Below are positions 47,912-64,000 of a DNA stretch of 64,000 nucleotides, piece by piece. Position numbers and translations under genes: made by a program. Location: the NCBI RefSeq assembly GCF_000519265.1, contig NZ_KI912608.1, forward strand, positions 3,647,921-3,711,920, in the 5' to 3' direction. This DNA comes from Desulfonatronum lacustre DSM 10312. Lineage in GTDB: Bacteria > Desulfobacterota > Desulfovibrionia > Desulfovibrionales > Desulfonatronaceae. The stretch's first letter is position 1. Each line of letters opens with the position of its first letter. The notes under the pieces were generated by a model. It saw only the letters and a program-made list of their open reading frames with translations, ran no database searches and was not told where the DNA came from.

Positions 47912-48003
47912 GAATGGGTTGAATGGGTTGAATGGGTTGAATGGGTTGAATGGGTTGAATGGGTTGAATGGGTTGAATGGGTTGAATGGGTTGAATGGGT
48001 GAT
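47912..48003. repeat. 9-bp minisatellite upstream of rfbA
   Basis: About ten perfect copies of GAATGGGTT in tandem. It fills most of the space between the preceding gene and rfbA and ends just before the rfbA Shine-Dalgarno. A frame reading NPF repeats across it is an artefact of the 9-bp period. Perfect identity suggests recent or ongoing length change. Confidence 0.95.
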
Positions 48004-48789: not shown

Positions 48790-49303
48790 CAGTTTGCTCC
48801 TGACTGTTTTCGTGTCGATCGGAATGGATTTCAGGCGCCGCATGGGCGCAAAATGGATCTCGCTCTTCACCTGCGATCTGAATCGGTATCGAAATCGAAA
48901 TCGTGATCGAAATCGAACGTCATGTCCAAGAAGATCGTAATCACAGGGTGGTGCACAGTATTTTCAAATTTCGATTTCGATTTCGATTTCGATCTCGACT
49001 TGGATTATGATGCGAACAGATTTGCTCTGGACGCCGGATATGCGCGCATTGACATTTGAAAAAAACAGCATGTATGGCATACAGGCCGAACATGTGTGAT
49101 GCCGTCTTCGGCGAGCGGAACCATGCTTTTTTCCGCCACGAAATCGATGGTGAAATCCGGTTTTGGGTCGGCTGAAGGCCAAGCCCTTGGAAAGAAAGCA
49201 TCCTTTGCCCCGGTTGTCAAAATGCCCAAGCGATGCGTGCTTGCCATTTTGGTCCTGGGAGCCCACAATAATTCAAACAACCCAACACGGAAGCAGCAGC
49301 GTC
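48790..49303. other. Intergenic region between divergent genes
   Basis: The first part holds hairpin element F (48880-49026). Several short frames on both strands run through 49027-49303, but none has family features, signal or a good Shine-Dalgarno. Promoters for both flanking genes should lie here; none is clear. Confidence 0.45.
48880..49026. repeat. Hexamer-arm hairpin element, copy F (CTTGGACATG-core class, inverted)
   Basis: Read on the minus strand it has the same order as E1 and E2: CAAATCTGTTCGCATCATAA, an arm of GATCGAAATCG units, a core with TGTGATTACGATC and CTTCTTGGACATGACGTTCG, then CGATTTCGATCACGATTTCG and ATACCGATTCAGA. Its left flank matches E1 (AATCTGTTC...AATCCAA). It is the third copy of this class within 12 kb. 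Confidence 0.85.
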
Positions 49304-49867
49304 ATGAGCACAGTCAATTATGTGAAATGTTTTTTGCGGGACAAAAACGTCGCCTCCATCACCCCGACATCCCCCTTTGGGGTGAAGCGGGTGTGCAAGA
49401 AGATCGATTTTTCCCAGGCCAACGTGATCGTCGAATACGGCCCCGGGGCCGGGGTGTTCACGGAGTATCTGCTCAAAAAGATGCGACCCGGCGCCCATCT
49501 CGTCCTGATCGAGCGCAACAAGGACATGTTCAAATGTCTGACCAAGGCGTTTCGCAGCGAGCGGGTGCACATCTTCAACGACAGCGTGGAAAACGTCGGC
49601 GCCCTGGTCAACGGGCAGTTGCCGGGCAAGCCGGACTATATCATTTCCGGCATTCCCTTTTCCTATCTCGACCAGCAAACCCGGCAGGAAATCATCCATC
49701 AAACCCACCAGATACTGGCCGAGAACGGCAAGTTCCTGGCCTACCAGACGTTCTACCAGAAGGACGACCACCTGTTCGTGCATCTGGAGCATTTTTTCCG
49801 GAACGTCAAATCCGAGTTCGAGCTGCTGAACATTCCCCCGATGCGGATTTATGAAGCCGTGAAATAA
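49304..49867 (+). CDS. SAM-dependent methyltransferase, PmtA/KsgA-like
   Basis: A 187-residue protein from ATG 49304. VKCFLRDKNVASITPTSPFG is the opening of PmtA-like phospholipid N-methyltransferases; VIVEYGPGAGVFTEYLL is SAM motif I and ISGIPFSYL replaces the NPPF-type motif IV. Substrate could be phosphatidylethanolamine or another lipid head group; rRNA is less likely given the length. Upstream frame extensions to 49163 have no support. Confidence 0.8.
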   Translation: MSTVNYVKCFLRDKNVASITPTSPFGVKRVCKKIDFSQANVIVEYGPGAGVFTEYLLKKMRPGAHLVLIERNKDMFKCLTKAFRSERVHIFNDSVENVGALVNGQLPGKPDYIISGIPFSYLDQQTRQEIIHQTHQILAENGKFLAYQTFYQKDDHLFVHLEHFFRNVKSEFELLNIPPMRIYEAVK

Positions 49868-49891: not shown

Positions 49892-51046
49892 GTGCGCAAG
49901 GTCCTGATGGTTGCAATCGGCGCGGTGGTCCTGGCCGCGGCGCTCTTGATCCTCTTCTGGCGTCCCGGAGATGAGCAAGCGCTCGTGGATGTTCCCCCCG
50001 CGCGGACGGCTTCTCCCGAGCCGCAAGCTCCCGTGGGCTCGCGGTACGTCGCGCCTCTTGTCGCTCCCGACTCTCCACCTGGTCCCGCAATACATCCGTC
50101 CGACGAGGCAACGGATGCTCCCGGCTTGCCGAAAACCCAGCCGGACGCCCAGTCAGAAGCCCAGCCAGACTCCCTGGAAGACTCCCTGGACGCCGGCCCT
50201 GACGAGCCCGAGCCGTCCGGCGTGTCGAACATCAGCGGCACTTTTTTCGATGACTTGGCCGGGCAGATCGTGGCTGGATACCATCCGCCCCGGTCCGAGT
50301 TCAATTCCGGGTCCCGGGGGCGGTTGCAATTCCATTTTTCGTCCCTGAACCGGCGCTATGGCATGGACTTGGTCGGCCTGGAGCACCAAAGTCCGTCGCT
50401 GATCCAGGGCAGGGAGGAGATTTTCCGGAACCTGCTTCAGCCCGAGGCTTTGGAAACCATATGGGCGCTGTTCATGCCGGTCTTCGAGCAGGCCTTGGAT
50501 GAAGCGCTTCAGACGGGCCGGTGGTCCTTTCCGGCGGCGGGATCGTCGCCCGATGAGCGCGGCCTGACCATCCAGGAGCAGCAGGAGTTCTACCGCTTGT
50601 TGTCCGGTTCCGCCGCGGCCCTGGCCCAGGCTGTGCAAAGCTACGCGGACCATGAAGACGCTCCGGCCCTGACGGAGCGGTGGCTCCAAACCCAGACCAA
50701 GGCCGATGCCGCCCACTCCCGGTACCAGCAGGCCGATGCCGAACTCTTGGTCGCCCAGGAGGAAACCCCCGACGATGAGGTGCGGATTCTGGCCGAACGA
50801 CTGGAACGGGACGCCGCGGCCCAGGGAATCATGCAGGCCATCGCCGCCAGGGAACAGGCCCGGCAAGACCTGCTGACCATTTACGTCACCGGGGCCTCCC
50901 GCCCCGAACTGAGTGAATCCGAACTGGTCTACCTCGCCGAATGGCTCTTCCGCCGCGTTCAAGCCCACCCCGAGCGCATCCAGGCCATCCGCTTCATGGC
51001 CGATAAATTCCGCGAACTGTCCCTGCGTCTGAGTCCGGGTTCCTGA
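49892..51046 (+). CDS. Membrane-anchored protein of unknown function with helical C-terminus
   Basis: A 384-residue protein from GTG 49892 (AAGGAGG upstream). One N-terminal membrane segment (VLMVAIGAVVLAAALLILFW) anchors it. Residues 30-115 are Pro/Ala/Asp-rich and probably disordered. The folded part starts near GTFFDDLAGQIVAGYHPP and ends in long helices (RILAERLERDAAAQG), giving a shape like lipase chaperones, but their diagnostic motif is absent. I cannot assign a family. It meets the KS gene tail to tail, 14 bp apart. Confidence 0.6.
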   Translation: MRKVLMVAIGAVVLAAALLILFWRPGDEQALVDVPPARTASPEPQAPVGSRYVAPLVAPDSPPGPAIHPSDEATDAPGLPKTQPDAQSEAQPDSLEDSLDAGPDEPEPSGVSNISGTFFDDLAGQIVAGYHPPRSEFNSGSRGRLQFHFSSLNRRYGMDLVGLEHQSPSLIQGREEIFRNLLQPEALETIWALFMPVFEQALDEALQTGRWSFPAAGSSPDERGLTIQEQQEFYRLLSGSAAALAQAVQSYADHEDAPALTERWLQTQTKADAAHSRYQQADAELLVAQEETPDDEVRILAERLERDAAAQGIMQAIAAREQARQDLLTIYVTGASRPELSESELVYLAEWLFRRVQAHPERIQAIRFMADKFRELSLRLSPGS

Positions 51047-51060
51047 TTTCCGTCTTCCTC

Positions 51061-52284
51061 TCACCGGGAAAGGGCCAGGACGCTGTTGGTCCCGCCGAAG
51101 GCCAGGGATTGGGACAGGGCGTGGGGTTGGTCGCGGTTGGTCGTTATGGTGAGGGGAGACAGGGCGATGTCCTCGCCCGGTTCGGAGAATCCGGGACTCG
51201 CGGGAACCTTGCCCAGGCGCAGAAACGCCAGGCTGAGCACGGCTTCGATGGCCCCGGCGGCGCCGAGGGTATGCCCCGTGGCGCCTTTGGTGGACAGGAG
51301 CGGGACGGCGGGCAAGGCCTCGGCCAAGACTTTGCTTTCCACGGCGTCGTTGTCCTTGGTTCCCGTGCCGTGGGCATTGATGAAGGCGATGTCGTCCGCG
51401 CAAAGACCGGAGAGGCGCAGTGCCTCGGTCAGGGCGGTTTTCAGCCCCACCCCTTCGGGGTGCGGCGCGGTCAGGTGATGGGCGTCGCAGGCCGTCCCGT
51501 ATCCGAGAATTCTCCCAAGTATTTCCCTCAGCACTCCCTTCCCCGCCTCTTTCCCCGACGGCTGGGCCTCCAGAATCATGATCCCCGCGCCCTCGCCCAG
51601 ATTCAGCCCTCGGCGAGCCCGGTCAAAGGGGCGGCACGGCTCCGGGTCCATGATCTTCAGGGAAGCGAAGCCGTTGTAGGTTACCCGGCACAGCTCATCC
51701 GCGCCTCCGGCCACCACCACGTCACACAACCCCGCCCGGATCCACCCGGCCCCGATCCCGATGGCGTCCGTACCCGAGGAACAGGCGTTGGTCACGGTCT
51801 GACACGGCCCCCGGAATCCGAATTCCCGAGCGATGGCCGACGCGGGGTTGCCGCGCAGATAGCGCCGCACGGGCTCCATGTCCGGATGCAGGGACTGGAG
51901 ATATTCGCGGTAAAATTCCTCACTGTTCAGCGTCCCGCCCACGGTGGTGCCGATGCAGACCCCGATGCGCAAATCTTGGCGACGATCCGTCGAGAGAACA
52001 GCCTGCTCAAGGGCCTCGCGGGCCGCGTGCAGGGCGAAGCGCACGGTCAGGGTCCGGCGGGTGTTCTGATCCTTCGCGAAGAACGCCTCGGGGACCTCAA
52101 AGACGGGGTAGGCCGTGGGATGGCTGCTCTGAAACCGTCGGGCCGGGGCCGGAGCGCGGCGGCCCGAAAAGATGGTTTCCAGGCTCTGCTCCAGGTTCAA
52201 ACCGGCCGCGCAGATGCATCCCATTCCGGTTACGGCTACCGGCGCGGGGCTGTTCGCGGCATGGTTCGGACAAGATCCGCTCAC
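51061..52284 (-). CDS. Beta-ketoacyl-ACP synthase (FabF-like)
   Basis: A 407-residue thiolase-fold enzyme. The Cys-His-His triad is intact: VTNACSSGTDAIG, NAHGTGTKDND and KGATGHTLGAAG. It should extend an ACP-bound chain. I chose GTG 52284, which overlaps the ACP stop; a longer in-frame ATG at 52314 lies inside the ACP gene. It is the last gene of the long operon. It resembles ApeO/ApeC-type ketosynthases of aryl-polyene clusters more than a housekeeping FabF by context (inference). Confidence 0.9.
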   Translation of the reverse strand: MSGSCPNHAANSPAPVAVTGMGCICAAGLNLEQSLETIFSGRRAPAPARRFQSSHPTAYPVFEVPEAFFAKDQNTRRTLTVRFALHAAREALEQAVLSTDRRQDLRIGVCIGTTVGGTLNSEEFYREYLQSLHPDMEPVRRYLRGNPASAIAREFGFRGPCQTVTNACSSGTDAIGIGAGWIRAGLCDVVVAGGADELCRVTYNGFASLKIMDPEPCRPFDRARRGLNLGEGAGIMILEAQPSGKEAGKGVLREILGRILGYGTACDAHHLTAPHPEGVGLKTALTEALRLSGLCADDIAFINAHGTGTKDNDAVESKVLAEALPAVPLLSTKGATGHTLGAAGAIEAVLSLAFLRLGKVPASPGFSEPGEDIALSPLTITTNRDQPHALSQSLAFGGTNSVLALSR

Positions 52285-52535
52285 TGGGGATTGCGCTCCT
52301 GGATGAAGTCGCACAGCGCGTTGACGGATTGAAAGGCCGTGCGCCCTTGCTCCATGTCCGCGATGACCACGCCGAAATGCTTCTGGATGATCACCACCAA
52401 CTCCACCGCATCCAGGGAGTCCAGCCCCAGTCCCTCCCCGAAGAGCGGCGCGTCGTCGTCAATATCCTCGGGGGAGACATCCTCCAGATTCAGTTCCTCG
52501 ACCAGGGTTTGTTTGACTTTATCCTTGAAGGTCAT
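52281..52535 (-). CDS. Acyl carrier protein
   Basis: An 84-residue ACP. GLGLDSLDAVELVVII contains Ser40, the phosphopantetheine site. The acidic helix II is typical for type II fatty acid or polyketide systems. Overlaps the KS gene by 4 nt. A dedicated ACP next to a KS, dehydratase and thioesterase marks a specialised acyl pathway. Confidence 0.93.
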   Translation of the reverse strand: MTFKDKVKQTLVEELNLEDVSPEDIDDDAPLFGEGLGLDSLDAVELVVIIQKHFGVVIADMEQGRTAFQSVNALCDFIQERNPQ

Positions 52536-52574
52536 TGTGTCGTCCTTTGTTCGTCTTGAACGGCGTCTTATTCG

Positions 52575-53492
52575 TTATCGGGGTGTGTTCCACATGTCGT
52601 GAAAGTTGTAAAACTGGTAGGGATTGGCTTGAACATAGGTTTCCAGGGATTCCACGAATTCCAGGGCGAACGGTCGCAGGGCCTCCAGCCGACGATCCCG
52701 GATTCGGGGGACCCGGATCACCCGGGCCAGGTCCAGGGCATAGGCGTCGGGAGCGGTCTTGCGCGAGAAGAGCACGGCCACCGGGGCTCCGGTGGTGGCG
52801 GCGATTTTGTAGGCCCCTACCGGAAAGGCGGCTGGTTCGCCCAGAAACGGCAGCTCCAGATGGTTCTGGTCGTGGCCGAAGATCCGGTCGCCCATGACGC
52901 TGACGATTTCCCCGCGCCCCAAGGCCTGGACGATTTCCACGGCCCCGCCCAGAAATCCGTTGGGGTCGATGATCCGGTATGGTGATTCCAGACCCTTATG
53001 TTCATGATAGTGCCGGTCCACGTCGCCCTGGTCCCGCTGCATGAGCAGGTGCGTCGGAACCTGAAGTCTGTTCAGGCCGGACATGGCCGCCTGCCAGCAG
53101 CCCACGTGGGCGCCCATCAGGATCAGTCCCTTTCCGTGGTCCAGCAGCTCCCGGAGTATCTGGAACCCGTTGAAACGGACGGCCAGGCTTTCCGGGCCGA
53201 GGATGCCCGCCCGGGCCCTGTCCACCAGGGCCTGGGCAAAGCAGAGGCTGAGCCGGAAACTGTCCGTAAAGGCCCGGAAGCCGGTGCGGGTCGGGAATCG
53301 GCGGCGGAGATAATGCCGGGTTCTGGCCCGAAGCCGGGGCCGAAAGAGCAGGTAATACGCAACCACCGGGTAGGTCCAGGCATAGGCCAGACGACGCCCG
53401 CCCAGGCGAACGGCCAGATAGAAGAACTGGTGCTGCCATTTGGCGGCGATGCTCCGGCTGGACCAGGATGAGGAGGCGGAACTATTCAGCAT
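52575..53492 (-). CDS. Lysophospholipid/lipid A-type acyltransferase
   Basis: A 305-residue LPLAT-superfamily protein from ATG 53492; a longer frame upstream is only repeat sequence. ILMGAHVGCWQAAMSGL is the catalytic block, but the usual acidic residue of the HX4(D/E) motif is Gln. GDRIFG and FLGEPAAFPVGAYKIA are further LpxL-like features. Aryl-polyene clusters also carry such acyltransferases for lipid anchoring. Hairpin element H lies 17 bp upstream of its start. Confidence 0.85.
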   Translation of the reverse strand: MLNSSASSSWSSRSIAAKWQHQFFYLAVRLGGRRLAYAWTYPVVAYYLLFRPRLRARTRHYLRRRFPTRTGFRAFTDSFRLSLCFAQALVDRARAGILGPESLAVRFNGFQILRELLDHGKGLILMGAHVGCWQAAMSGLNRLQVPTHLLMQRDQGDVDRHYHEHKGLESPYRIIDPNGFLGGAVEIVQALGRGEIVSVMGDRIFGHDQNHLELPFLGEPAAFPVGAYKIAATTGAPVAVLFSRKTAPDAYALDLARVIRVPRIRDRRLEALRPFALEFVESLETYVQANPYQFYNFHDMWNTPR

Positions 53493-53508
53493 AGAGTAAT
53501 ACCGTTGC

Positions 53509-53609
53509 CGGGGTCGGAATCGGTATCGGGATCGAAAACGCTGGGAAGCGTTCATAATTTTTCCTGTTCCGATTCCGATTCCGATAGCGACCCCGACTCC
53601 GATTGCCGG
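53509..53609. repeat. Hexamer-arm hairpin element, copy H (GGAATCGG subclass)
   Basis: GTTGCCGGGGTCGGAATCGG on the left and CCGATTCCGATTCCGATAGC then CCCCGACTCCGATTGCCGG on the right, around a spacer that itself holds AACGCTGGGAAGCGTT. GTCGGGGTCGCTATCG (reverse strand) is shared with copy G. It lies inside the long minus-strand operon, between GT2-DUF2062 and the acyltransferase, where its RNA hairpin could change the level of downstream genes. Confidence 0.8.
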
Positions 53610-53663
53610 AGCAAGGGCGGACACAAAATGTGCTGAGAAGATACGAAGAGCCAGCGGGGCGGG

Positions 53664-54863
53664 TCATGACGGATCGCGTTCTTTGGCGTTTCGCCGGATG
53701 GAGAGGCGCAGGAAGTGGGCCGTCATGAACGTTGCTCCGGCCACCAGGGAAGCCAGGACCGGAGCCAGGACCAGGGAGCCGAGCACCCATTCCCAGAGCC
53801 GGGCCGGGGCCTGCTGGCCCAGGGTCTGGACGGTGAATTCCGTCAGCCATGAGCCGTGGCGCAGATAATGGCCGACCTCGATGCACAGCGCCGGTACCAG
53901 CGGCGGCATGCACAACTGGCTGGCGGTCAGGGCCACCACCCGGTTCTGGCCCAGATACCCGGCCGTGAGCAGGATGACCATGGTATGGATGCCCACCAGG
54001 GGCAAGGTGCCCAAGAACACGCCCAGGAAAGCGGCCCTGGCCAGGCCGCCCGGCGTGACCGTGTCGCGCAGCAGGATCTTCAGGGACTGGATTGGCCGGA
54101 TGACGCTTATGGCCGCACTGTCGACCGCACTCCCTTGTGTCCGCTGGATGATCCGGCGATGGGGCCAGGGCAGCATGGAGCGCAGGGTCAGCCGGGTGTT
54201 CAGCCAGGATATCCGGACATTGTCCATGATCGCCCGAAAGTGGGAAACCCGCTGCGCGGCCGGGGGATAGTGGACCCTTATAGGCACGTCCAGCAGGTCC
54301 AGCCCGGCCCAGGCCGAGCGGACCAGCACCTCCACCTCGAAGGCGTAGCGGGTTTCGGTGAACTTCAGATGTTCGAACAGGGCCACGGGGTAGGCCCGGA
54401 AACCGCTTTGCGTGTCCAGGAGTTTGCGGCCGGTCTGGACGCGCAGCCAGAAATTGGAGAACCAGCGCCCGAACCTGGACGCCCGGGGCACGTTGGCCGC
54501 GGCGAAATCCCGTGCTCCAACGATGACGGCCAGGGGATGGTTGCGCACGGCGTCGAAAAACCGGGGCAGATCGGCGGGATCGTGCTGCCCGTCCGCGTCG
54601 ATGGTCACGATGTGCGTCACGCCGAGGGCGGCGGCCTCCTGGGCCGCGGTGCGAATCGCCGCGCCCTTGCCCTGGTTCGTCCGGTGCGTCCGGATCTTGA
54701 CGGGCAGGTCGGCGATCCGCGCCAGACCTTGGTCCGTGCTCCCGTCGTCCACCACCAGCACGTCCGGGTGCACCGCCAAAACGCCTTCCACCACCTGCCT
54801 GAGGGTGGCGCCGTGGTTGTACACGGGCACGACCACGAGGATTTGGACTTTTGGGTTACGCAC
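53664..54863 (-). CDS. Family 2 glycosyltransferase fused to a DUF2062 membrane domain
   Basis: A 399-residue protein from GTG 54863, overlapping the radical SAM stop. Residues 1-~230: VVVPVYNHGATLRQVV, VLVVDDGSTDQG and IDADGQHDP (acidic metal site) mark a polyprenyl-phosphate-type GT2. Residues ~270-399: TPGGLARAAFLGVFLGTLPL and QLCMPPLVPALCIEVGHYL are DUF2062, with three or four helices. The same GT2-DUF2062 fusion occurs in aryl-polyene clusters. It probably glycosylates a lipid or the polyene head. Confidence 0.88.
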   Translation of the reverse strand: MRNPKVQILVVVPVYNHGATLRQVVEGVLAVHPDVLVVDDGSTDQGLARIADLPVKIRTHRTNQGKGAAIRTAAQEAAALGVTHIVTIDADGQHDPADLPRFFDAVRNHPLAVIVGARDFAAANVPRASRFGRWFSNFWLRVQTGRKLLDTQSGFRAYPVALFEHLKFTETRYAFEVEVLVRSAWAGLDLLDVPIRVHYPPAAQRVSHFRAIMDNVRISWLNTRLTLRSMLPWPHRRIIQRTQGSAVDSAAISVIRPIQSLKILLRDTVTPGGLARAAFLGVFLGTLPLVGIHTMVILLTAGYLGQNRVVALTASQLCMPPLVPALCIEVGHYLRHGSWLTEFTVQTLGQQAPARLWEWVLGSLVLAPVLASLVAGATFMTAHFLRLSIRRNAKERDPS

Positions 54864-56307
54864 CGTCGAACCTGTCCCTTCCGCGGGCAAAGCGGATGAA
54901 TGTTCCGAGATTGGAGAGGAACCGACGCCAACTGTCCGGGGAGCGCCAGAGCATGGCGGCGTAGTCCAGGAGAACCCGCGGGCGCTGGTAATGCTGGCGG
55001 TAGAAGGAAACATGCAGATCTTCCAGACGTTGGCGGGTAAAGCCGCGGGGCACGAACAGGAAGTGCATGCAGTCCATGCGGCTCCAATCCTCGTCGAACT
55101 CTCCGTGGTCGCGGATGGTCGCGTAGGCCGGAGCGCCGGGGAAGGGGGTGAACTTGGTCAGGTTGAAGTCGTCCACGGGCAGGGAGAAGAGGAATCGGCG
55201 GGTTTTTTCCACGCTTTCCTCGGTCTCTCCGGGCAGGCCGATCATCAACAGCCCCTTGACGCGAATGCCGGCTTTCTTGATCAGCCGGACCCGCCCGGCC
55301 AGTTGTTCCAGGTCCACCTTGCGGTTCATGGCGTGCAGCAGGTCCTGGTCCCCGGTTTCGATGCCCAGGCTGACCATCCAGCACCCGGCGGCCTTGAGGC
55401 GGCGAAGCAAAGGCTCGGTGACGTGTTCGGCGCGCACCGCGCAGTTGAAGGTCATGTCCAGGGGCGCATCCGCAAGCAGGTCCGTGAGTTGTTCGATGCG
55501 CTGGAGATGAAACGTGAACTGGTCGTCGTAGAAATTGACGTGCCGGATGCCGAAGCGCTCCTTGAGATAGCGCATGTGGTCATACAGATAGGCGGCGGAG
55601 TTGAAGCGGTAGCTGCGCTCGAACACGGACCGGTCGCAATAGGCGCAGGCGTACGGACATCCGCGACTGGACAAGGCGCTGGCGTTGGGCGTCGTGGGGT
55701 AGTTGAACACGGGCAGCGTGTAGCGGCCAGGGTAGCCCGGCAGGCGCTCATAGGCCGGGTAGGGCAGGTCGTCCAGATTCGGGATTCGGGGCCGGGGCCC
55801 GGCAAAGACGATTTCGTCGGCGCAAGCGCCTCGGGAGATCACTCCGAGGACATCCTGACTCCGGCCTGCGGTCTGGATCAGTTCCGCCAGGCTCTGCTCG
55901 CCCTCGCCGATGACGATATGGTCGATCACCGGGTGGTCGCGGAGCATTCGGTCCCGCAAGGCCGAGACATGCACCCCGCCGAAGACCACGCGCACCCCGG
56001 GCAGCACCGCCTTGGCCAACTTCGCCAGCCGGACTCCGTCCAGAAAGGCGGAAGTGGTGCAGGAAAAACCGATGAATCCGGGCCGCTTTTCCAGCAGCAG
56101 GTCGCGCATCCGTCGTTCCGAGTCCGGCCAGGCGTAAAAATCCACGATGTCCGACGCGATGCCCAGCTTTTTCAGGTACGCGGCCATTGTGGCCAATCCC
56201 AGGGGCGGCATGATGTTGGCCACGCGGGAAATGTCCCCACCGGCCCGGCCGACGGCGTACCCCAGGGGATGGACCAGAAGAACGCGATTGTGGTCAAGAG
56301 TGGGCAT
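54856..56307 (-). CDS. B12-binding radical SAM protein 1
   Basis: A 483-residue protein. A Rossmann B12-binding-like N-terminus (VLLVHPLGYAVG ... VVFGGVHVSALRDRML) is followed by a radical SAM core with SSRGCPYACAYCDRSVF (CxxxCxxC). HxxH-type base-on binding of cobalamin (DxHxxG) is not evident. The class includes methylases (HpnP), cyclases (BchE, OxsB) and others. Start ATG 56307; extension upstream would only translate GC-rich repeat sequence. Confidence 0.85.
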   Translation of the reverse strand: MPTLDHNRVLLVHPLGYAVGRAGGDISRVANIMPPLGLATMAAYLKKLGIASDIVDFYAWPDSERRMRDLLLEKRPGFIGFSCTTSAFLDGVRLAKLAKAVLPGVRVVFGGVHVSALRDRMLRDHPVIDHIVIGEGEQSLAELIQTAGRSQDVLGVISRGACADEIVFAGPRPRIPNLDDLPYPAYERLPGYPGRYTLPVFNYPTTPNASALSSRGCPYACAYCDRSVFERSYRFNSAAYLYDHMRYLKERFGIRHVNFYDDQFTFHLQRIEQLTDLLADAPLDMTFNCAVRAEHVTEPLLRRLKAAGCWMVSLGIETGDQDLLHAMNRKVDLEQLAGRVRLIKKAGIRVKGLLMIGLPGETEESVEKTRRFLFSLPVDDFNLTKFTPFPGAPAYATIRDHGEFDEDWSRMDCMHFLFVPRGFTRQRLEDLHVSFYRQHYQRPRVLLDYAAMLWRSPDSWRRFLSNLGTFIRFARGRDRFDGA

Positions 56308-56326
56308 GGTTGCGTGCAGTCGGGCG

Positions 56327-57883
56327 TCAGGCTTCGGAAGTTGAAATACTCGCGGGGTATTGCGTGGCGAGATCGGTCGCGGGCGGGAAGGGGATGGACC
56401 GGCCGCCTTCTGGGGAGCGATGTGCCGGTGCAGAGGGAAAAGCTTCTTTTGACGAGCCGCCGTTCGCCTTCCCGTTCGTCCTCCCGTTCGCCCTCCCGTT
56501 CGCCCGGCCGTTCGCCCGGCCGTTCCCATTTTTTCCCCGACGCTGCTTCTCCGCGCTGATCAACTGGTCCCAGACCAGGCCGCGGTACCCGAAGCGGCGC
56601 ATCACGTTCATGCGGTCCTGGGCGTTTCGTGGCGGGAAAAAACGGTCGCGACGACCGCGCAGGGCCTGGCTCACGGTTGCGTGCATGGTTTCGCGGTCCA
56701 GCAGCGGACTGTGGTAATAGGCGGGATGAAGCAGCGAGGTTTGCCGGTCGATCAGGCCTTCGGCCACGGCGCGGCGGTGCAGCCTGGTTCGCGGAAGGAT
56801 GCGCAAACCGGAATACAGGAAGGCCACGCAGTGTTCCATCTTCTCCAGGTTGGCCAGGGTTTCCTTGATGGTCGCCTCGGTTTCCTCCGGTCCGCCGATG
56901 ATCAGGTAATGGGCCAGGGGAATGTTTCGGGCCGCGCAGACGGCATTGAACCGCAATACGTCCGAGCAGCAAAAGCCTTTGCCGAGTCCGGCCAGGGTCG
57001 ATTCGGCCAGGGCGTCCGAACCGACCTCCATGCCCAGGAGGCCGGAGCGGAGCAACAGGTCCAGCTCCTCCTCCCGAATGCGTCCGGGACGAAAAAACGC
57101 GCTCCAGCGCACGGGCAGGTTACGCCTGAGCAATGCCTCGGCCACGGCCAGATAGTGGCCTTGATCGTCGTTGAACACGGAGTCGGTGAAAAAAACGTGG
57201 TCCACTCCGTGTTTCCGGGCCAGTTCGGCCATGTCGTCCGCCACGTGTTCCGGGTCCCGCGGACGGATGGTGCGGCCCTCGATGGCCGGATAGCTGCAAT
57301 ACACGCAGTCGTGCGGACATCCTCGCTTGGTGTGCACGCCGGGCAGGCCGCTTTCCCGCTGATAGTACTCCAGGATCACGGGGTCCATCCGGGGCGAATG
57401 CATCCTGGTCGCGTCCAGCGGGCTGCTTTTGACGATGAGCGGCCCGGTCTCTCCCCGCTCGATGCGGGAGAGCAGGTCCAGGACGGCCCGCTCACCTTCT
57501 CCGGCCACGCCGAAATCCGCGCCCAGGTACGCAAGGATGGCCTCGGGCATGATGGAAAACGCCGGACCGCCGACAATGATCGGGACGTCGTGGGTCGCGC
57601 GGAGCAGTTCCACGATTCGCCTGCTCCGGTCCAGAAACCACTGTTCCGGACCGCCGCAGGAGTCCACGTCGTCGATGTTGCGCAGCGAGAGGCCGACAAC
57701 CCGGGGCTGAAATTCCAGCAAGGCCGTCCGCAGCGCATCGTCGGACTCGCCCATGGCCAGATAGTCGATCTGCCGGACTTCATGACCCGCGGCGCACAGT
57801 GCCTGGGCGACCACGGCCATGCCCAGGGGATACACCGGGTAGGGCTCGCGGTCCGTGTTCGTGGCAAGCAGGAGTATTTTCAT
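56327..57883 (-). CDS. B12-binding radical SAM protein 2, with repetitive C-terminal tail
   Basis: A 518-residue protein from ATG 57883 (a GTG two codons earlier is possible; neither has a clear Shine-Dalgarno). MKILLLATNTDREPYPVYPLG opens the B12-like domain; KRGCPHDCVYCSYPAIEG is the 4Fe-4S motif and RFNAVCAARNIPLAHYLIIGGPEE the distal barrel. Residues ~455-475 are a GRAN/GRTN repeat (12-bp unit), followed by a disordered, Pro/Ser-rich end; these are absent in the other two. Confidence 0.85.
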   Translation of the reverse strand: MKILLLATNTDREPYPVYPLGMAVVAQALCAAGHEVRQIDYLAMGESDDALRTALLEFQPRVVGLSLRNIDDVDSCGGPEQWFLDRSRRIVELLRATHDVPIIVGGPAFSIMPEAILAYLGADFGVAGEGERAVLDLLSRIERGETGPLIVKSSPLDATRMHSPRMDPVILEYYQRESGLPGVHTKRGCPHDCVYCSYPAIEGRTIRPRDPEHVADDMAELARKHGVDHVFFTDSVFNDDQGHYLAVAEALLRRNLPVRWSAFFRPGRIREEELDLLLRSGLLGMEVGSDALAESTLAGLGKGFCCSDVLRFNAVCAARNIPLAHYLIIGGPEETEATIKETLANLEKMEHCVAFLYSGLRILPRTRLHRRAVAEGLIDRQTSLLHPAYYHSPLLDRETMHATVSQALRGRRDRFFPPRNAQDRMNVMRRFGYRGLVWDQLISAEKQRRGKNGNGRANGRANGRANGRTNGKANGGSSKEAFPSAPAHRSPEGGRSIPFPPATDLATQYPASISTSEA

Positions 57884-57904
57884 CGGCACGAGGAAGGTAC
57901 AAGA

Positions 57905-59188
57905 TCAATCATGGCGGGAATGCTCCGTGTCCGGGTTCTTTTTGGGAAAGGCCCGTTTGCGTTTCAGGTCGTAGCGACGATAGGTGCCGTCGTCCATCTC
58001 CTTGGAAATGACCTTTTTGAACAAGTTGCCCATTCGCAACTGCGGCCCTCCCTCGGCGTAAAACGTGTCCCAGGCATAGTGAAAGAGTTCCTGCAGGGTG
58101 TCCGGAGGCATTTGCTTGGGCTGAAAAACCACTTTGTCGCAGGTGTACTCCAGCCAGTTGTTGCTCAGGATACGGTCTTGCTGCTCGAACATCTCCCGGA
58201 TGGGGGTGTGCGGGAACGGGGTCAGGATCGTGAACTCGGCCATGTCCAATTCCACCTCCAGGAGGAAGTCTACCATCCGCTTGATGTAGGATTCGTCGTG
58301 ATCGTCCAGACCCAGGAGGATGGTGCCTTCAATGCCGATGTCGTGGTCCTTGAGCATCCTGATCCGTTCCCGAATGGTTTTCGAATCGTCGATCACCGCC
58401 TGGTACACGTACCAGCAGCCGGCCTGGGCCGCGAGGTCCAGGATTTCCGGGTCGTACATGATGGGATGGGAAATCCACTTGCGCTTCAAGGGAATCATGG
58501 CCGTGAACAGGTCTTTCAGCCACTCCCGGTCCTGGGCCAGGGAATTGTCCACGAAGAACAGCCGGTTGTTGGCGATGGATTCCATCTCCGCGATGACCTT
58601 GTGGATGGGACGCGGCCGGAAGGACTTGCCGCCCAGATAGGCCACGCAGCAGGGCATGCAGTTGAACTTGCAGCCTCGGGAGGCGTGGAGCAGATCCACC
58701 ATCTGGACGCCGCGATAGTTGTACAGGTCGCGCTTCAATATGCCGCGCCGCGCCGTTCCCGCCAGGGAGATGTCCGGAGGAGCGCCAAGATAGTCATAGA
58801 CGGGGCGCAGGCGGTTTTCCTTCAGATCCTGGATCACCGCGGCGAAGCGGCCTTCCACTTCGCCCAGAAAGAGCGAGTCCGCGTGTCGGGCCGCTTCCTC
58901 GGCGTGAAGCATGGTCCCGATGCCGCCCATGATCACCGGCACGCCCAGTTCCCGGTAACGGTCCGCGATGGCCAGGGCCCTGGGCAGCTGGCAGGTGAGC
59001 ATCACCGACAGGGCCGCCAGATTCGTGGAGGCGTCGAAGTCCAGGGGCTCCAGGTTCTCGTCCGTGAACGTGATCTCCACGTCCTCGGGGACTTCCGCCG
59101 CGAAGACCACCGGCCCGTGAGGCGGCAGGTGGAATTCGGTCTGGCGTTCGAGCTTGGGCCATTTGGGGTAGATCAGGTGCATGCGCAT
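57905..59188 (-). CDS. B12-binding radical SAM protein 3
   Basis: A 427-residue protein from ATG 59188, overlapping the thioesterase stop by 16 nt. The N-terminal ~130 residues look B12-binding (VPVIMGGIGTMLHAEEA). The cluster motif is SRGCKFNCMPCCVAY: CxxxCxxC is kept but the residue before the third Cys is Pro and a fourth Cys follows at once, an atypical pattern. The C-terminus (FQPKQMPPDTLQELFHYAW) is shared by this branch. It completes three in a row. Confidence 0.85.
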   Translation of the reverse strand: MRMHLIYPKWPKLERQTEFHLPPHGPVVFAAEVPEDVEITFTDENLEPLDFDASTNLAALSVMLTCQLPRALAIADRYRELGVPVIMGGIGTMLHAEEAARHADSLFLGEVEGRFAAVIQDLKENRLRPVYDYLGAPPDISLAGTARRGILKRDLYNYRGVQMVDLLHASRGCKFNCMPCCVAYLGGKSFRPRPIHKVIAEMESIANNRLFFVDNSLAQDREWLKDLFTAMIPLKRKWISHPIMYDPEILDLAAQAGCWYVYQAVIDDSKTIRERIRMLKDHDIGIEGTILLGLDDHDESYIKRMVDFLLEVELDMAEFTILTPFPHTPIREMFEQQDRILSNNWLEYTCDKVVFQPKQMPPDTLQELFHYAWDTFYAEGGPQLRMGNLFKKVISKEMDDGTYRRYDLKRKRAFPKKNPDTEHSRHD

Positions 59189-59649
59189 GGTTTGTCCCGT
59201 TTCCATCGGTCGCAGAAGGCTTCGAAAAAAGGAGGCAGGGCGATGAGCACGTTCATCTTCAGGTCCAGGAGCATTTGCACGGTATAGCCGGTGGTGGCGA
59301 TTGTCCCCGCGACGTTGCGGACCACGTATTCGGTGTTGATCCGCGCGGACTCGGAAAAATGCTGGATCCCCTCCACGGTGAACTCTTCGTCGAAGCGCAG
59401 GGGCTGGTGGTAGTCCACGTGCATCATTTTAATGGGCGTGACCACGCCGTGCTCGTAGAAGGCCATGTAGCCGATGCCGTATTTGTCGCCCAGGGCCATA
59501 CGCGCGTCCTCGAAAAAACTTGGGTATCGGCCATGCCAGACAATGCCCAGCGGGTCCACCTCCTCGAAGCGCACCCGTCGCGCACAGACGGCTCGCAAGG
59601 GCTCGGGGTGGCCATCCTGTTTTGGGAAATACGGTTTGCGCATGTTCAT
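59173..59649 (-). CDS. 4HBT hot-dog thioesterase
   Basis: A 158-residue hot-dog protein. FEEVDPLGIVWHGRYPSFFEDAR is the YbgC/4-hydroxybenzoyl-CoA thioesterase active site (catalytic Asp in VDPLGIVWH). It should release or transfer an acyl chain. Aryl-polyene clusters have such a thioesterase (ApeK). ATG 59649 overlaps the dehydratase stop as ATGA. Confidence 0.88.
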   Translation of the reverse strand: MNMRKPYFPKQDGHPEPLRAVCARRVRFEEVDPLGIVWHGRYPSFFEDARMALGDKYGIGYMAFYEHGVVTPIKMMHVDYHQPLRFDEEFTVEGIQHFSESARINTEYVVRNVAGTIATTGYTVQMLLDLKMNVLIALPPFFEAFCDRWKRDKPCACT

Positions 59650-60068
59650 CCGTCAGCGGGGGCGCCTGGTTCAGAGGTGGAGGCCAAGGTGAATGTAAGG
59701 GTGTACGCCGCGGCCTGTTGCTGGTCCACGGTCAGCACAACGTTGCAAGCCCCGCCGCCGGGGCCGCATCGGGCGCAACGGGAGCATCGGGCCGTAATGG
59801 TTTCTCCGGGCTTCAGTTTCCGCAAGAATTTGGCCCGGGTTACGGTTTTCAGCCGCTGGTGACCGGTTTTCTCCGCAAGGAGGGCCTGGGACAAAACAAC
59901 GCCGAGCCCGATCTGGACCACGGCCGGCAGAATCGCTTCTTCCGGAAAGTGTCCGGCGAATCCGACGAACTCGGGCGGGAAGGAGAAGTCCTGGCGGATG
60001 GTTTGACCGTCCTCCCGGATGGCCGGACCCAACCGGGCGGCCAGGATGCCGTCGCTGATCGTGTTCAT
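59646..60068 (-). CDS. FabZ/ApeI-like hot-dog dehydratase-type protein
   Basis: A 140-residue hot-dog protein. FVGFAGHFPEEAILPAVVQIG matches GHFP..P.(L/M)PGVxxxE of FabZ/FabA: His40 is present, but the acidic residue (Glu/Asp) expected about a dozen residues later is Gly in VVQIGLG. So it may be a weak or non-dehydrating relative, for example a chain-binding domain. It overlaps the DUF3261 stop by 4 nt. ApeI and ApeP do this job in aryl-polyene clusters. Confidence 0.8.
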   Translation of the reverse strand: MNTISDGILAARLGPAIREDGQTIRQDFSFPPEFVGFAGHFPEEAILPAVVQIGLGVVLSQALLAEKTGHQRLKTVTRAKFLRKLKPGETITARCSRCARCGPGGGACNVVLTVDQQQAAAYTLTFTLASTSEPGAPADG

Positions 60069-60739
60069 GGCTCAAAGACCTCATGCAGGACAATGGTCAA
60101 TGCGTATCCGGCCCGGTGGTCCTGGTAGACGATTCGTCCGGGACCCGTAAAGCCGTTCATGGGTTGGTAGGCGTCGAAGTCAACGCTCCAGCGCCGCTTT
60201 GGATCGTAGACACGGCGAACCTGCCCCTTGCGCGGGTCGCAGGTCTGAACCACCGGCGACCCTTGAGACCGGTCGATCAGCAGCAGATCTTCCGGCCCGA
60301 GATGGGCCTCGGCGTCGGCCATGTCCCGGTGGGACAAAAAAATCCGGCGCGTACTCAACGCGATCTGGTCGGCCAGCCGCTCTCCGTTGGCTCCCAGGGT
60401 GGGGGCCAGAGCAAGGATATCGTGACCTTCCGAGGTGACCTTCAGATCGAACAGCTTCATTCCCAGTTCGGAAAGGCCGACAATTCGCACCTCAGCCCGA
60501 TCCACGTCAAGAATCATGAACCCCTGGAGCACATGGGTTTGTCCTTGGGTCTCCAAAAATACGGTTTGACGCAGATGGTACGGAGTTTCGCCCGCGGGCC
60601 ACGGTGTCAGGCAGGAGTCGGTGGGAGGGATCACGTGTGGCAGGTAGCCGTCCGGTGGAAGGTACGGACGGGAACAACCCGTCAGGAGGATGGCGAGAAA
60701 GATGCCTTGCAAGATGCCGTGAATGATGCGTTGCGACAT
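60065..60739 (-). CDS. DUF3261 lipoprotein
   Basis: A 224-residue protein with a lipoprotein signal (IIHGILQGIFLAILLTGC; Cys in LTGC). The mature part (HLRQTVFLETQGQTHVLQGFMILDVDRAEVRIVGLSELGMKLFDL) is DUF3261, seen almost only in aryl-polyene-like clusters together with a LolA and an MMPL protein. Likely an outer-membrane receptor-type lipoprotein in lipid transfer (inference). Confidence 0.85.
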   Translation of the reverse strand: MSQRIIHGILQGIFLAILLTGCSRPYLPPDGYLPHVIPPTDSCLTPWPAGETPYHLRQTVFLETQGQTHVLQGFMILDVDRAEVRIVGLSELGMKLFDLKVTSEGHDILALAPTLGANGERLADQIALSTRRIFLSHRDMADAEAHLGPEDLLLIDRSQGSPVVQTCDPRKGQVRRVYDPKRRWSVDFDAYQPMNGFTGPGRIVYQDHRAGYALTIVLHEVFEP

Positions 60740-60743
60740 GGGC

Positions 60744-63248
60744 TTACCGGTGGGATTTTTTGCGCGGCTCCAGGCACGGCACCACGAACAGGGCCGCCGG
60801 GATCGCGGCGGCGATGCCGATGAGGACGGTCAGGCCGATGGAGTGCAGGGCTGGATGGTCGGCCAGGACCAGGGCTCCGAAGCCGAGCAGGGTTGTCAGG
60901 CCGGAGACCAGTACGGCCTTTTCAGTGTCCAGGTCAGTGCCCAGGCCAATGTCCAGGTTAGCGTCCAGATCCGTGCCCAATCCCGAGCCCAAGCTGTCCC
61001 GCCCCCGGTCGAGGCGCATGGTCATGAAGATGCCGTAGTCCACGCCCAGTCCCAGTATCAGAAACGTGGCCGCGATGGAGTAGAGATTAAAGGGAATGTT
61101 CAGAAGTGTCACGACAACGATCAAGGCGGACAGCCCGGCCAGGGCCGGGGTCAGGGACTGGAGCATGCGTCGCGGGTTGCGGAACAACACGGCGGTCATC
61201 AGGGTCACGAAGACTCCGGCGGCCAGGAGAAAGCGGGTCATGTCCCGGTGCAGGGCCGCGGCGATGTGCCGGCCCAGGAGAGACTGGGATACCAGCCGGG
61301 TTTCGGAAGGGAGGAGGGCGTGGAGTTCGGGCTTGTCGGGAAGCAGCGTGAGGATGGTCACGCCCGCGTTGTCCGGAACAACGAGCATGTCGATCAGCTC
61401 TTCCATACCGAGACGACGGAGGTGATCGATACGGACCTGTTCAGGCTCGGCCTGGAGGAAGTCAAAAAACGGGGCAAAGGCCTGGGGCGCGAAGCCCAGG
61501 CGCGCGCCTTCCCTGGCCATGATATCCCGAAGCCCGGCTCTTCGTTGCGTCCAGAAATCCGTCCATCGGCAGATGGATTCCTCTTGAACCGACGCGGGGG
61601 GCAACAGCGGGGCCAGGCTGGCGACGGGCGTGCCCGGGCCCGCTTTTTCCAGAAAGGCATGTTGGGCATGGGCCGTTTGCAACGCATTTTCCAGGGTATC
61701 GCCCTGGGCAACGAGCATGGCCAGGCTGCGCACCCCGCCCCAGGACTGCGCGACGACCCGCTCGGCCTGAGCCAGTTCTTCGGGGACCATGCTCAGGGCC
61801 TGAAGGCGTCCGTCGAAATGAATCGAGGGCCAGCAGAGCACGGCGGTCGCCAGCAGGGCGACGAACGCCGAGATCGCCGGCCTGCGGCGAGTCGGCCATG
61901 AGGCCAAATGCGCCAATGGTCGCTCTGGCGGATGAACTGGCGTGGACGGACGCCGCTTGTTTCGGCGCAGCAGCAAAACCGGCAGGACCGTCAGGGACAG
62001 AAGCATGGCCGCGCTCAGGCCGGAAACCGTGAACAGGGCCAATTGCCGCTGTCCCGGCAGGCTGGAGAACAGGAGCAGGCTGAACACCCCGGCGGAGGTC
62101 AGCCAGCAGAACAGGATCGGCTTGGCCAGCAGGGCCAGAGTCTGTGCCGGATCAGCGCCGCGTCGCAGCCCGTACCAGACATGCAGCCCGTAATCCACGG
62201 CCAGCCCCATGAGTACGGCCCCGAAGCCCAGCGTGATGCCGGAGAGAGGATTGCCGGTGGCGGCCACGGCCGCGACGCCAGCCAGCATGGCGACCAGGGG
62301 CGCGGCGTAGGCGAATGCAGCCCGCCAGGAACGCAGAAACAGAACGAACAGGGCCAGAATGCCCAGGGCCGAGACGGGAAGCACCAGGGCCAGATCCCGC
62401 TGGATGGCCTGGGCGTTGGCCGCGGTATAGGCGTGGCCGCTGATCACGAAGGCCCGTATCGGGCTCGAAAGATCATTCGAAAGGTCATCCGAAGACGCAT
62501 CCGCCAGCGCCGCGGCCAGAATGTCATCCAGGGCCGCCAGCATGTCCCGGGAGCCCCGGGCGTCGGTCATGGCCACGGGAGTGTCCAGGACGAGCAGGGC
62601 TCCGGGATGATCCGGGTTCAGGAAAATGCCTTCACCGGGATTCGACATGGCGAGGCCGTCACCGATAATGTCAAGGGAAGACAGCTTACCCCAGATCAGA
62701 TTCCGCAATCCCAGCGGGTCCGAGCTGATCAGTCCCTTCATCCCGATACCCTGCAATCCCAGGAGCGTCTCGCGGGCACCTTCCAGGGCGCGACGGACGG
62801 ATTCCGGATGGAGCAGCGTCTCGATGCGCTCCAGGTCGGATGGCGTGGAAAGCGCCGGAAGCAGGGAAAGAAACTGATCCGCCATATCCTGAGCTTCCGG
62901 CTGGTCGGGGGCTGTGCTTGGTTCGGCGAACCAGGGCGGGCCGGCCGCTTCTCGAATATCTTGAGCCGCTTGCCTCAGAACTTCCAGATCGACAAGCCCG
63001 GACTGCCCAGGCACCGGTTCCAGGATCACGAGCACCTTGGACAGGAACGGGGCATGGCCCAGCAGACGGACATCCCCGGCCAGGCCGGAGCCGTCGTCGG
63101 GGAGCATGGCCTCGATGTCCTCCGCCAGGGTTGCCTGGCGCAGAAAAAAAAGTCCCATGGCCAGGCAGCCCGCGAGGAGCAGGAGAACTGTGGCTTTATG
63201 GGACAATAAAACGGTGAAAAGGCGCACCGTGGCTGGAGTTCGCGCCAT
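60744..63248 (-). CDS. MMPL/RND family lipid exporter
   Basis: An 834-residue transporter with about twelve helices in two halves: one helix plus a large periplasmic loop, then five helices, and the same again. GFGAVLMGLAVDYGLHVWYGL and GLGVDYGIFMTMRLDRG are the paired MMPL helices with the proton-relay Asp. It corresponds to the ApeM-type exporter of aryl-polyene systems. ATG 63248 lies four bases after the LolA-like stop, so a longer reading is rejected. Confidence 0.9.
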   Translation of the reverse strand: MARTPATVRLFTVLLSHKATVLLLLAGCLAMGLFFLRQATLAEDIEAMLPDDGSGLAGDVRLLGHAPFLSKVLVILEPVPGQSGLVDLEVLRQAAQDIREAAGPPWFAEPSTAPDQPEAQDMADQFLSLLPALSTPSDLERIETLLHPESVRRALEGARETLLGLQGIGMKGLISSDPLGLRNLIWGKLSSLDIIGDGLAMSNPGEGIFLNPDHPGALLVLDTPVAMTDARGSRDMLAALDDILAAALADASSDDLSNDLSSPIRAFVISGHAYTAANAQAIQRDLALVLPVSALGILALFVLFLRSWRAAFAYAAPLVAMLAGVAAVAATGNPLSGITLGFGAVLMGLAVDYGLHVWYGLRRGADPAQTLALLAKPILFCWLTSAGVFSLLLFSSLPGQRQLALFTVSGLSAAMLLSLTVLPVLLLRRNKRRPSTPVHPPERPLAHLASWPTRRRPAISAFVALLATAVLCWPSIHFDGRLQALSMVPEELAQAERVVAQSWGGVRSLAMLVAQGDTLENALQTAHAQHAFLEKAGPGTPVASLAPLLPPASVQEESICRWTDFWTQRRAGLRDIMAREGARLGFAPQAFAPFFDFLQAEPEQVRIDHLRRLGMEELIDMLVVPDNAGVTILTLLPDKPELHALLPSETRLVSQSLLGRHIAAALHRDMTRFLLAAGVFVTLMTAVLFRNPRRMLQSLTPALAGLSALIVVVTLLNIPFNLYSIAATFLILGLGVDYGIFMTMRLDRGRDSLGSGLGTDLDANLDIGLGTDLDTEKAVLVSGLTTLLGFGALVLADHPALHSIGLTVLIGIAAAIPAALFVVPCLEPRKKSHR

Positions 63249-63252
63249 GATC

Positions 63253-63918
63253 CTAGAACAGCCCCGGTGAAACATCCTCATTGACGCGGACGTTGAAGAA
63301 GCGGATGCGGGTGGTGTCGCCGTCGGGTTCGAAGAGCACGATCTCCTGAAGGTGGGTTTCGTCCCGGTCAAAGGAGACCTGGACGCGCTGGAGGACCGCC
63401 GCGAGTTGACGGGTTCTGGGCAGGAGTTCCAGGGTAAGCGGGGCTGTTTCCGGGGTCGATTCTGGGGTCGTCTTTGGCACGGCAAGGGTGAAAGAGGCTT
63501 CCAGTTTTTCGGCGTCCATGGTGGACCAGGCCAGCATCTGGTCCACGATCACCGAGAGGATTGGATCCCGGGCCAGCGGGGAGGGGGCGGACATCCCGGA
63601 ATGTTCATTCCAGCGCCGGACCTGTTCCCCGTCCGAGGCGAATCCAAAAGCGGAGGGCTCCTGATAGGCCCAGTGAATTTTGCCGGGTTGCTTCACGGCG
63701 AAGACGCCCATGGAAACAAAGGTTCGGTCGAACATGCTCAGGCGCTTTTCCTGCTCAAAATCCCCTTGGACCGATCGGGTGCCTTGGTGAATGACCGCCA
63801 GGCGTTCCCGTAAGGCCGGCGTCAATTCCTTGAATTCGTCAGTCACGGCGGTTGGGGGAAGTCCGAGAGACAGGAAGAGGAGGAGAAAACAGGACAAGGC
63901 CAGGCGGTGAATCGTCAT
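63253..63918 (-). CDS. LolA-like periplasmic lipid carrier
   Basis: A 221-residue protein with a signal peptide (LALSCFLLLFLSLGLPPTAV). The mature region (IHQGTRSVQGDFEQEKRLSMFDRTFVSMGVFAVKQPGKIHWAYQEP) is a LolA-like half barrel. ApeL in aryl-polyene clusters belongs to this type and should shuttle the lipid from MMPL to the outer membrane. ATG 63918 overlaps the preceding stop as ATGA. Confidence 0.88.
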   Translation of the reverse strand: MTIHRLALSCFLLLFLSLGLPPTAVTDEFKELTPALRERLAVIHQGTRSVQGDFEQEKRLSMFDRTFVSMGVFAVKQPGKIHWAYQEPSAFGFASDGEQVRRWNEHSGMSAPSPLARDPILSVIVDQMLAWSTMDAEKLEASFTLAVPKTTPESTPETAPLTLELLPRTRQLAAVLQRVQVSFDRDETHLQEIVLFEPDGDTTRIRFFNVRVNEDVSPGLF

Positions 63919-64000
63919 GCCGGGCCTCCTTGCTCATCGCCGTCCGAAGCGATCCAGATTTTCAGTTCTCCCTGGGCCAAAAGATCGTCGTGACGGCGGA
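63915..64000 (-). CDS. C-terminal end of a partial upstream operon gene
   Basis: The last 27 codons of a gene entering from the right end RRHDDLLAQGELKIWIASDG then DEQGGPA, with a stop overlapping the LolA-like start. Too short for a family. By operon position it should be another acyl-pathway enzyme. Confidence 0.6.
   Translation of the reverse strand, partial: RRHDDLLAQGELKIWIASDGDEQGGPA

Follow-up and report, generated by a model that had tools for sequence, protein, structure and literature searches.

Aryl-polyene-like gene clusters with three B12-binding radical SAM enzymes in Desulfobacterota and their relation to ladderane candidate genes

Type II fatty acid synthesis clusters with genes for radical S-adenosylmethionine (SAM) enzymes and CrtI were described in 2009 for the anammox bacterium Kuenenia stuttgartiensis, together with their synteny to Desulfotalea psychrophila, in which a related cluster includes DP1853, DP1855 and DP1860; C31:8 and C31:9 hydrocarbons, and no ladderanes, were found in D. 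psychrophila (Rattray 2009, PMC2649909). The genes kuste3335-3352 stand on a list of 34 candidates for ladderane synthesis, and candidate sets expressed in Escherichia coli yielded no ladderane, in operons that did not cover all 34 genes (PMC4790861). Clusters labelled ‘ladderane’ by antiSMASH are reported in Desulfobacterota, with their role given as not known (PMC9902471). B12-binding radical SAM enzymes were proposed earlier for ladderane synthesis, and the few that are said not to methylate (OxsB, HpnJ, PbsB, BchE) are credited with ring formation or rearrangement (PMC13142503). As a reference for aryl polyene (APE) clusters, we used the gene classes of E. coli apeA-R (PMC8253772). Here we compare these systems with a cluster containing three B12-binding radical SAM genes in Desulfonatronum lacustre DSM 10312 (genome G000, one contig of 3,761,451 bases), part of which lies in a stretch of 64,000 nucleotides at positions 3647921-3711920, hereafter the window.

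Judged by its genes, the window cluster is a sister type of the kuste3335-3352/Desulfotalea cluster, joined to anchoring and export genes of the APE type. We consider it probable that the locus encodes an anaerobic type II pathway, based on acyl carrier proteins (ACPs), for an acyl lipid of the cell envelope. As far as the open-licence literature shows, clusters of the window type are undescribed, while related types have already been published.

The D. lacustre cluster and the aryl polyene gene set

The core of the cluster is a minus-strand operon at 51061-63918 in which genes overlap or are separated by short gaps. Every gene named in a preliminary description made from the letters alone was recovered here by reading frames and Pfam, with corrections of detail that include a later start for rSAM3 and a sub-threshold match for the ApeI-like protein. 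Its view that an APE-like export and anchoring kit is present agrees with the Pfam families. Export is represented by a LolA-like carrier (ApeL-like, 63253..63918; PF03548, 65.4 bits), an MMPL/RND exporter (ApeM-like, 60744..63485; PF03176) whose true start, from the length of relatives, is probably near 63281 or 63248, and a DUF3261 lipoprotein (ApeN-like, 60065..60739; PF11659, 42.7 bits). Anchoring is represented by a lysophospholipid acyltransferase (LPLAT) of the lipid A acyltransferase family (52575..53624; PF03279, 45.6 bits) and by a family 2 glycosyltransferase (GT2) fused to DUF2062 (53664..55013; PF00535, PF09835). Both probably start later than called; LPLAT relatives have about 300-320 residues.

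Chain assembly genes on the same strand comprise the beta-ketoacyl synthase (KS) gene KS1 (51061..52314; PF00109/PF02801), with the active-site Cys, His and His kept, ACP1 (52281..52535; PF00550, 49 bits), an ApeI-like hot-dog protein (59646..60068; PF22818, 20.6 bits against a cut-off of 28.5) and an ApeP-like dehydratase (63915-64385; PF22817, 32.9 bits against 27), of which only the 3′ end (63915..64000) lies inside the window. A 4HBT-like thioesterase (59173..59649; PF13279, 48.6 bits), which reached no NCBIfam cut-off, may have an ApeK-like role. Between it and the glycosyltransferase lie the B12-binding radical SAM genes rSAM1 (57905..59206), rSAM2 (56327..57889) and rSAM3 (54856..56307).

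The cluster was expected to continue to the right with a ketoreductase, an AMP-ligase, a chain-length-factor KS and an ammonia-lyase, and all but the last were found. In extended window coordinates, it runs on for about 10 kb beyond the edge, to about 74024, through a fourth radical SAM gene, of the SPASM type (65138-66202), an AMP-ligase on the plus strand (about 66184-67464), PlsC (67510-68301), ACP2 (68298-68576), KS2 (end at 68530) and KS3 (71264-72580), each with Cys-His-His kept, a CrtI-like flavoenzyme (69783-71267), a ketoreductase (72631-73362) and a lipoprotein-like gene with no Pfam match (73389-74024). A degenerate, chain-length-factor-like KS that has lost the Cys and the first His follows on the plus strand at 74091. 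No ammonia-lyase was found among the main reading frames in a Pfam scan to about 82600, the remaining genome not having been searched for one.

The cluster thus shares with E. coli APE loci the carrier, exporter and lipoprotein, LPLAT and GT2, a thioesterase, dehydratases of the ApeP and ApeI types, a ketoreductase, KS with a chain-length-factor-like partner, and ACPs. It differs in its CrtI-like flavoenzyme and four radical SAM enzymes, for which the part of the reference used names no E. coli gene (PMC8253772), and in that the ligase is optional across relatives of the window cluster. By Pfam, no SAM methyltransferase of the ApeB type is present among the minus-strand cluster genes.

The radical SAM genes and their linkage to the cluster

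rSAM2 belongs to the NCBIfam family TIGR04072, rSAM_ladder_B12 (651 bits, cut-off 360). Its length of 520 residues, compared with 504 in genome G005 and about 450 in most others, reflects a 12-bp repeat array (56460-56525) that extends the C-terminal tail. For rSAM3, the called reading frame begins too early, alignment indicating a start near 56307; the nearest NCBIfam models are BchE, a P-methyltransferase family and HpnJ, all far under cut-off. None of the three enzymes reached the HpnJ or BchE equivalog cut-off, the best scores being those of rSAM3 (BchE, 166 against 481; HpnJ, 158 against 578). rSAM1 is more divergent, reaching no NCBIfam family cut-off and, as a single sequence, falling under the Pfam cut-offs for both B12-binding and Radical_SAM. 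Because both families are matched at E<=0.01 by all 22 aligned orthologues, the CxxxCxxC cysteines C179, C183 and C186 are invariant in the same 22, and a profile comparison with rSAM2 gives an alignment spanning both domains (98.8%), rSAM1 is by profile a B12-type radical SAM protein. Solved relatives of rSAM2 and rSAM3 include TokK, OxsB, CysS and a tryptophan 2-C-methyltransferase. The last, which we take to be TsrM, is nearest to rSAM2, and TokK and OxsB are among the nearest to rSAM3; another solved relative of rSAM3, and weakly of rSAM1, is presumably AprD4.

Conservation was followed in a close set of 101 genomes (D. lacustre and 100 relatives) and in a phylum sample of 395 Desulfobacterota genomes. 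rSAM1 matches at E<=1e-20 occur in 9 genomes of the close set, six of these, D. lacustre included, at no less than 79% identity. Within the genus, three of eight genomes carry rSAM1, one of them (G003) only as a remnant. This remnant (L021:14731-16999), which consists of DUF3261, ApeI-like, 4HBT and N-terminally truncated rSAM1 genes only, indicates loss of the cluster. Across the phylum sample, orthologues at 48% identity or more are present in 53/395 genomes; with distant relatives included, the number of genomes matching at E<=1e-20 is 201.

Neighbourhoods were compared for 26 of the 52 other phylum carriers, picked for long contigs and not at random, together with five relatives and D. lacustre. 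The order rSAM1-2-3 is consecutive within the same gene set in 13 of these 32, drawn from eight families of the phylum. In four more, rSAM1 adjoins rSAM2; two of these have rSAM3 at another place in the cluster and two have no rSAM3 match. In 14, rSAM1 lies within a differently arranged cluster, and the G003 remnant makes up the count. Left out of it were G018, G034 and G038, members of the same order whose rSAM1 relatives (29-35% identity) have one to three distant matches nearby and no such cluster.

Pairwise identities were compared over 15 clusters, some cut by contig ends, with nine genes present in all 15. With a mean identity of 0.68, rSAM1 ties with ACP1 and exceeds the other genes present throughout. 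Identities of the three radical SAM genes correlated with those of other cluster genes at a Spearman coefficient of at least 0.5 in 33 of 45 values and lower in 12; for rSAM1 they reached 0.82-0.88 with KS1, LPLAT, GT2, CrtI, the ketoreductase and rSAM2. The low values with KS2 and KS3 (0.29-0.30) arise partly because incomplete neighbourhoods (G413, G059) pick other KS genes. In the phylum sample, TIGR04072 was above cut-off in 84 genomes, of which 42 also have rSAM1 and half have no rSAM1 orthologue (odds ratio 27, Fisher p 4e-23, with shared ancestry ignored). Each of the 22 matches that score above 560 bits has an rSAM1 orthologue no more than 263 bp away. The consecutive trio, the tracking of identities and this proximity rule out a separately inserted cassette, and the trio, which the preliminary description had placed within the cluster, appears as a fixed part of it.

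The ligase and SPASM genes appear to form an optional module across relatives. A phenylacetyl-CoA-ligase-type gene adjoins the SPASM radical SAM gene in G033, G062, G289, G332 and the anammox bacterium Jettenia; in G000 and G005 the SPASM gene lies beside a different AMP-ligase on the other strand. Neither SPASM nor ligase of either type was matched in seven otherwise similar clusters (G193, G302, G344, G375, G396, G412 and G465), that of G302 being cut by a contig end.

Anammox counterparts and flanking genes

K. stuttgartiensis and D. psychrophila were compared through published gene lists and genomes of relatives, and anammox genomes were reached with a hydroxylamine-oxidoreductase-type query. 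Ladderane production by all genomes reached via anammox loci is an assumption, and several drafts are assigned only to Planctomycetota. The suggestion that B12-binding radical SAM enzymes are foreign to known clusters of this kind is not supported: clusters of a related kind, with genes for radical SAM enzymes, CrtI, KS and a ligase, have been in print since 2009 (PMC2649909), and NCBI maintains the family rSAM_ladder_B12.

With the kuste3335-3352 and D. psychrophila clusters, the window cluster shares TIGR04072, the SPASM radical SAM, CrtI, MMPL, GT2, KS and degenerate KS, ketoreductase and ACP genes and, in its relatives, a ligase next to SPASM. The window SPASM protein is 48-49% identical to its Jettenia and Brocadia counterparts. 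The two types differ in gene order, in the presence of rSAM1 and rSAM3 beside rSAM2, DUF3261 and 4HBT in the window, and in that its minus-strand genes include no SAM methyltransferase (kuste3335-3352 has two), ATP-grasp protein or polysaccharide deacetylase. A contig of Jettenia ecosi (C38, L210/L211) has the published kuste3335-3352 order; neither a ketoreductase nor a second small ACP was called there, and Brocadia carolinensis has the ketoreductase. In both this contig and that of B. carolinensis (C42, L212/L213), where the ligase gene is apparently split, the cluster extends into LolA, LPLAT, a VTT-domain protein and a further radical SAM-SPASM gene. These four lie outside the published candidate list, in the part used here (PMC4790861). 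Three Desulfobacterota genomes also carry the kuste3335-3352 type, G354 and G313 with a gene order close to that of Jettenia and G463 partly rearranged and with a short ligase fragment, so at least two sister cluster types can be discerned from gene content, with a third arrangement in other genomes.

Among anammox bacteria the kuste3335-3352 type is patchy. Of 20 genomes, Desulfonema magnum and 19 reached as anammox, three have TIGR04072 above cut-off. Among 21 genomes, the SPASM protein finds a match of 48-49% in these three and one of 30-32% in five more. By both markers, the type is lacking from the complete genome of Brocadia pituitae. In contrast, a kuste3608-like radical SAM protein is present in all 21 genomes at 79-100% identity, with CrtI beside it in 7/7 genomes searched, and a kuste2803-like protein (53-59% identical to the kuste3608-like one) in 19 of 21. 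The KS residues at the Kuenenia hertensis loci agree with those given for Kuste3606 and Kuste2805 in Table 2 of Rattray. Loci of the kuste3603-3608 and kuste2802-2805 types share with the window KS, degenerate KS and a B12 radical SAM gene distantly like rSAM1 (29-34% identity), and the former also share ACP, CrtI and a hot-dog protein (detected in 3/5 loci). Export genes were not detected at these universal loci with window proteins, a weak test at such distance.

A specific kinship of rSAM1 with the universal anammox proteins was sought by tree and not found. rSAM1 forms its own clade on a long branch. The kuste3608-like genes join the kuste2803-like ones, and a G463 paralogue is the partner of the rSAM1-like gene from the accessory anammox cluster; this topology is to be read with a warning of long-branch effects. 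Because three of 21 genomes carry the kuste3335-3352 type and all 21 the kuste3608-like gene, we read that type as probably an anaerobic envelope-lipid pathway and not the ladderane pathway, and the window family likewise. The parallel with ladderane chemistry drawn speculatively in the preliminary description is closer in gene content than supposed, and its extension to a ladderane product is opposed by the anammox distribution.

Flanking the cluster beyond the degenerate KS are a PagL-like lipid A deacylase gene on the plus strand (75049-76038, L004:11970-12959) and a phosphate-type ABC transporter operon; PagL-like genes adjoin the cluster in several relatives too. Within the cluster, the plus strand holds a DUF6364-PIN toxin-antitoxin pair (about 64488-65143, L004:1409-2064). 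The pair runs counter to the cluster strand both here (G000) and in G005, and has no match in the clusters of G033 and G062. Beyond KS1, a plus-strand methyltransferase gene (49163-49867) is nearest to the ornithine-lipid N-methyltransferase OlsG (80 bits, cut-off 350); together with the adjacent gene (49892-51046), it occurs beside the cluster of G005 and the remnant of G003 as well. Repeats elsewhere in the window include a perfect 9-bp array of 9.9 copies (47912-48000) and several (ATCGAA)n arrays, at 15850, 20403, 27806, 36628 and 48888.

A putative envelope-lipid pathway and its alternatives

From the gene content, conservation, co-occurrence and homology observed, we infer a set of reactions, their order and a product. 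An unsaturated chain would be built on two ACPs by the several KS with the degenerate KS, the ketoreductase and the two hot-dog dehydratase-like proteins. Its double bonds should be retained, because none of the cluster genes was recognised as a dedicated enoyl reductase. The AMP-ligase and SPASM enzyme probably provide a special starter unit, and the CrtI-like flavoenzyme may desaturate or isomerise the chain. The three B12 radical SAM enzymes would then methylate the ACP-bound chain or join its carbons; the 4HBT thioesterase, PlsC, LPLAT and GT2-DUF2062 would place the chain on a lipid anchor, and the lipid would reach the outer membrane by way of MMPL, LolA and DUF3261.

Several observations weigh against this pathway. 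The fatty-acid enoyl reductase of the genome could still act on the chain. The best Pfam model of the ketoreductase, PF13561, is a general short-chain dehydrogenase model titled enoyl-ACP reductase, so the direction assigned to the enzyme rests on FabG-type NCBIfam matches (FabG equivalog, 276 bits against a cut-off of 273). Transcription as an operon is suggested by spacing only, and in G000 and G005 the AMP-ligase is encoded against the direction of the cluster. TIGR04072 above cut-off is absent from 11 of the 53 rSAM1 genomes, rSAM1 itself has only a weak solved relative, and the sequences of the radical SAM enzymes do not reveal whether these act as methylases, form rings or do something else.

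Almost all functional classes of APE loci are represented, and the locus might instead be an ordinary APE or flexirubin-like cluster in which the ligase loads an aromatic acid, fatty-acid-synthase-like enzymes make a conjugated aryl polyene and the radical SAM enzymes only decorate it by methylation. The ligase matches the 4-coumarate-CoA ligase model TIGR02372 at 250 bits and the best NCBIfam model of the ketoreductase is the flexirubin reductase FlxB at 290 bits, but both fall under cut-off (335 and 340, respectively). We regard this reading as unlikely, as ligase and SPASM genes were not found in the seven clusters named above, the portion of PMC8253772 used names no CrtI-like or radical SAM gene for E. 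coli, and the ApeB-type methyltransferase is wanting among the minus-strand genes, the plus-strand gene at 49163-49867 being nearest, under cut-off, to an ornithine-lipid N-methyltransferase.

Less likely still are polyunsaturated acyl chains ending as long-chain hydrocarbons (C31:8, C31:9), as proposed for D. psychrophila, which has both these compounds and a related cluster (PMC2649909). That link is correlative, anchoring and outer-membrane export genes would be needless for a free hydrocarbon, and none of the genes scanned was recognised as hydrocarbon-forming. Least likely of all, and in our view improbable, are ladderane or multi-cyclobutane chains formed by radical SAM cyclisation of a polyene. 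The placement of rSAM2 in an NCBI ‘ladder’ family points that way, as does the sharing of ACP, KS, degenerate KS, CrtI, B12 and SPASM radical SAM, MMPL and glycosyltransferase genes with the K. stuttgartiensis candidate clusters. In D. psychrophila, however, a non-anammox bacterium for which a related cluster has been published, ladderanes were not detected (PMC2649909); the kuste3335-3352-type locus is confined to three of the anammox-reached genomes by either marker, and rSAM1 is not sister to the universal anammox proteins in a tree subject to the long-branch warning.

Returning to the envelope-lipid pathway, we extend it in a broader proposal, which we hold tentatively and short of calling it probable. 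Desulfobacterota and a few anammox bacteria would share anaerobic, B12-dependent counterparts of APE clusters, in which up to three B12 radical SAM enzymes methylate or cyclise ACP-bound polyenes to give a new class of outer-membrane lipid; kuste3335-3352 would be counted in this family, with patchy occurrence, instead of being the ladderane pathway, leaving kuste3603-3608 and kuste2802-2805 as candidates.

The window cluster is a cousin of clusters that are suspected of making the ladder-shaped anammox lipids, a role never shown for them. Its analysis narrows the list of 34 ladderane candidate genes, as one whole cluster type occurs in only 3 of 21 genomes and is missing from the complete Brocadia genome; marker genes of the two small loci, by contrast, occur in 21/21 (kuste3608-like) and 19/21 (kuste2803-like). 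If the proposal is true, anaerobes of a widespread group produce an as yet undescribed lipid of the outer membrane, using chemistry for which few B12 radical enzymes are known. Some of the carriers, unlike anammox bacteria, may be culturable, which would open these reactions to testing.

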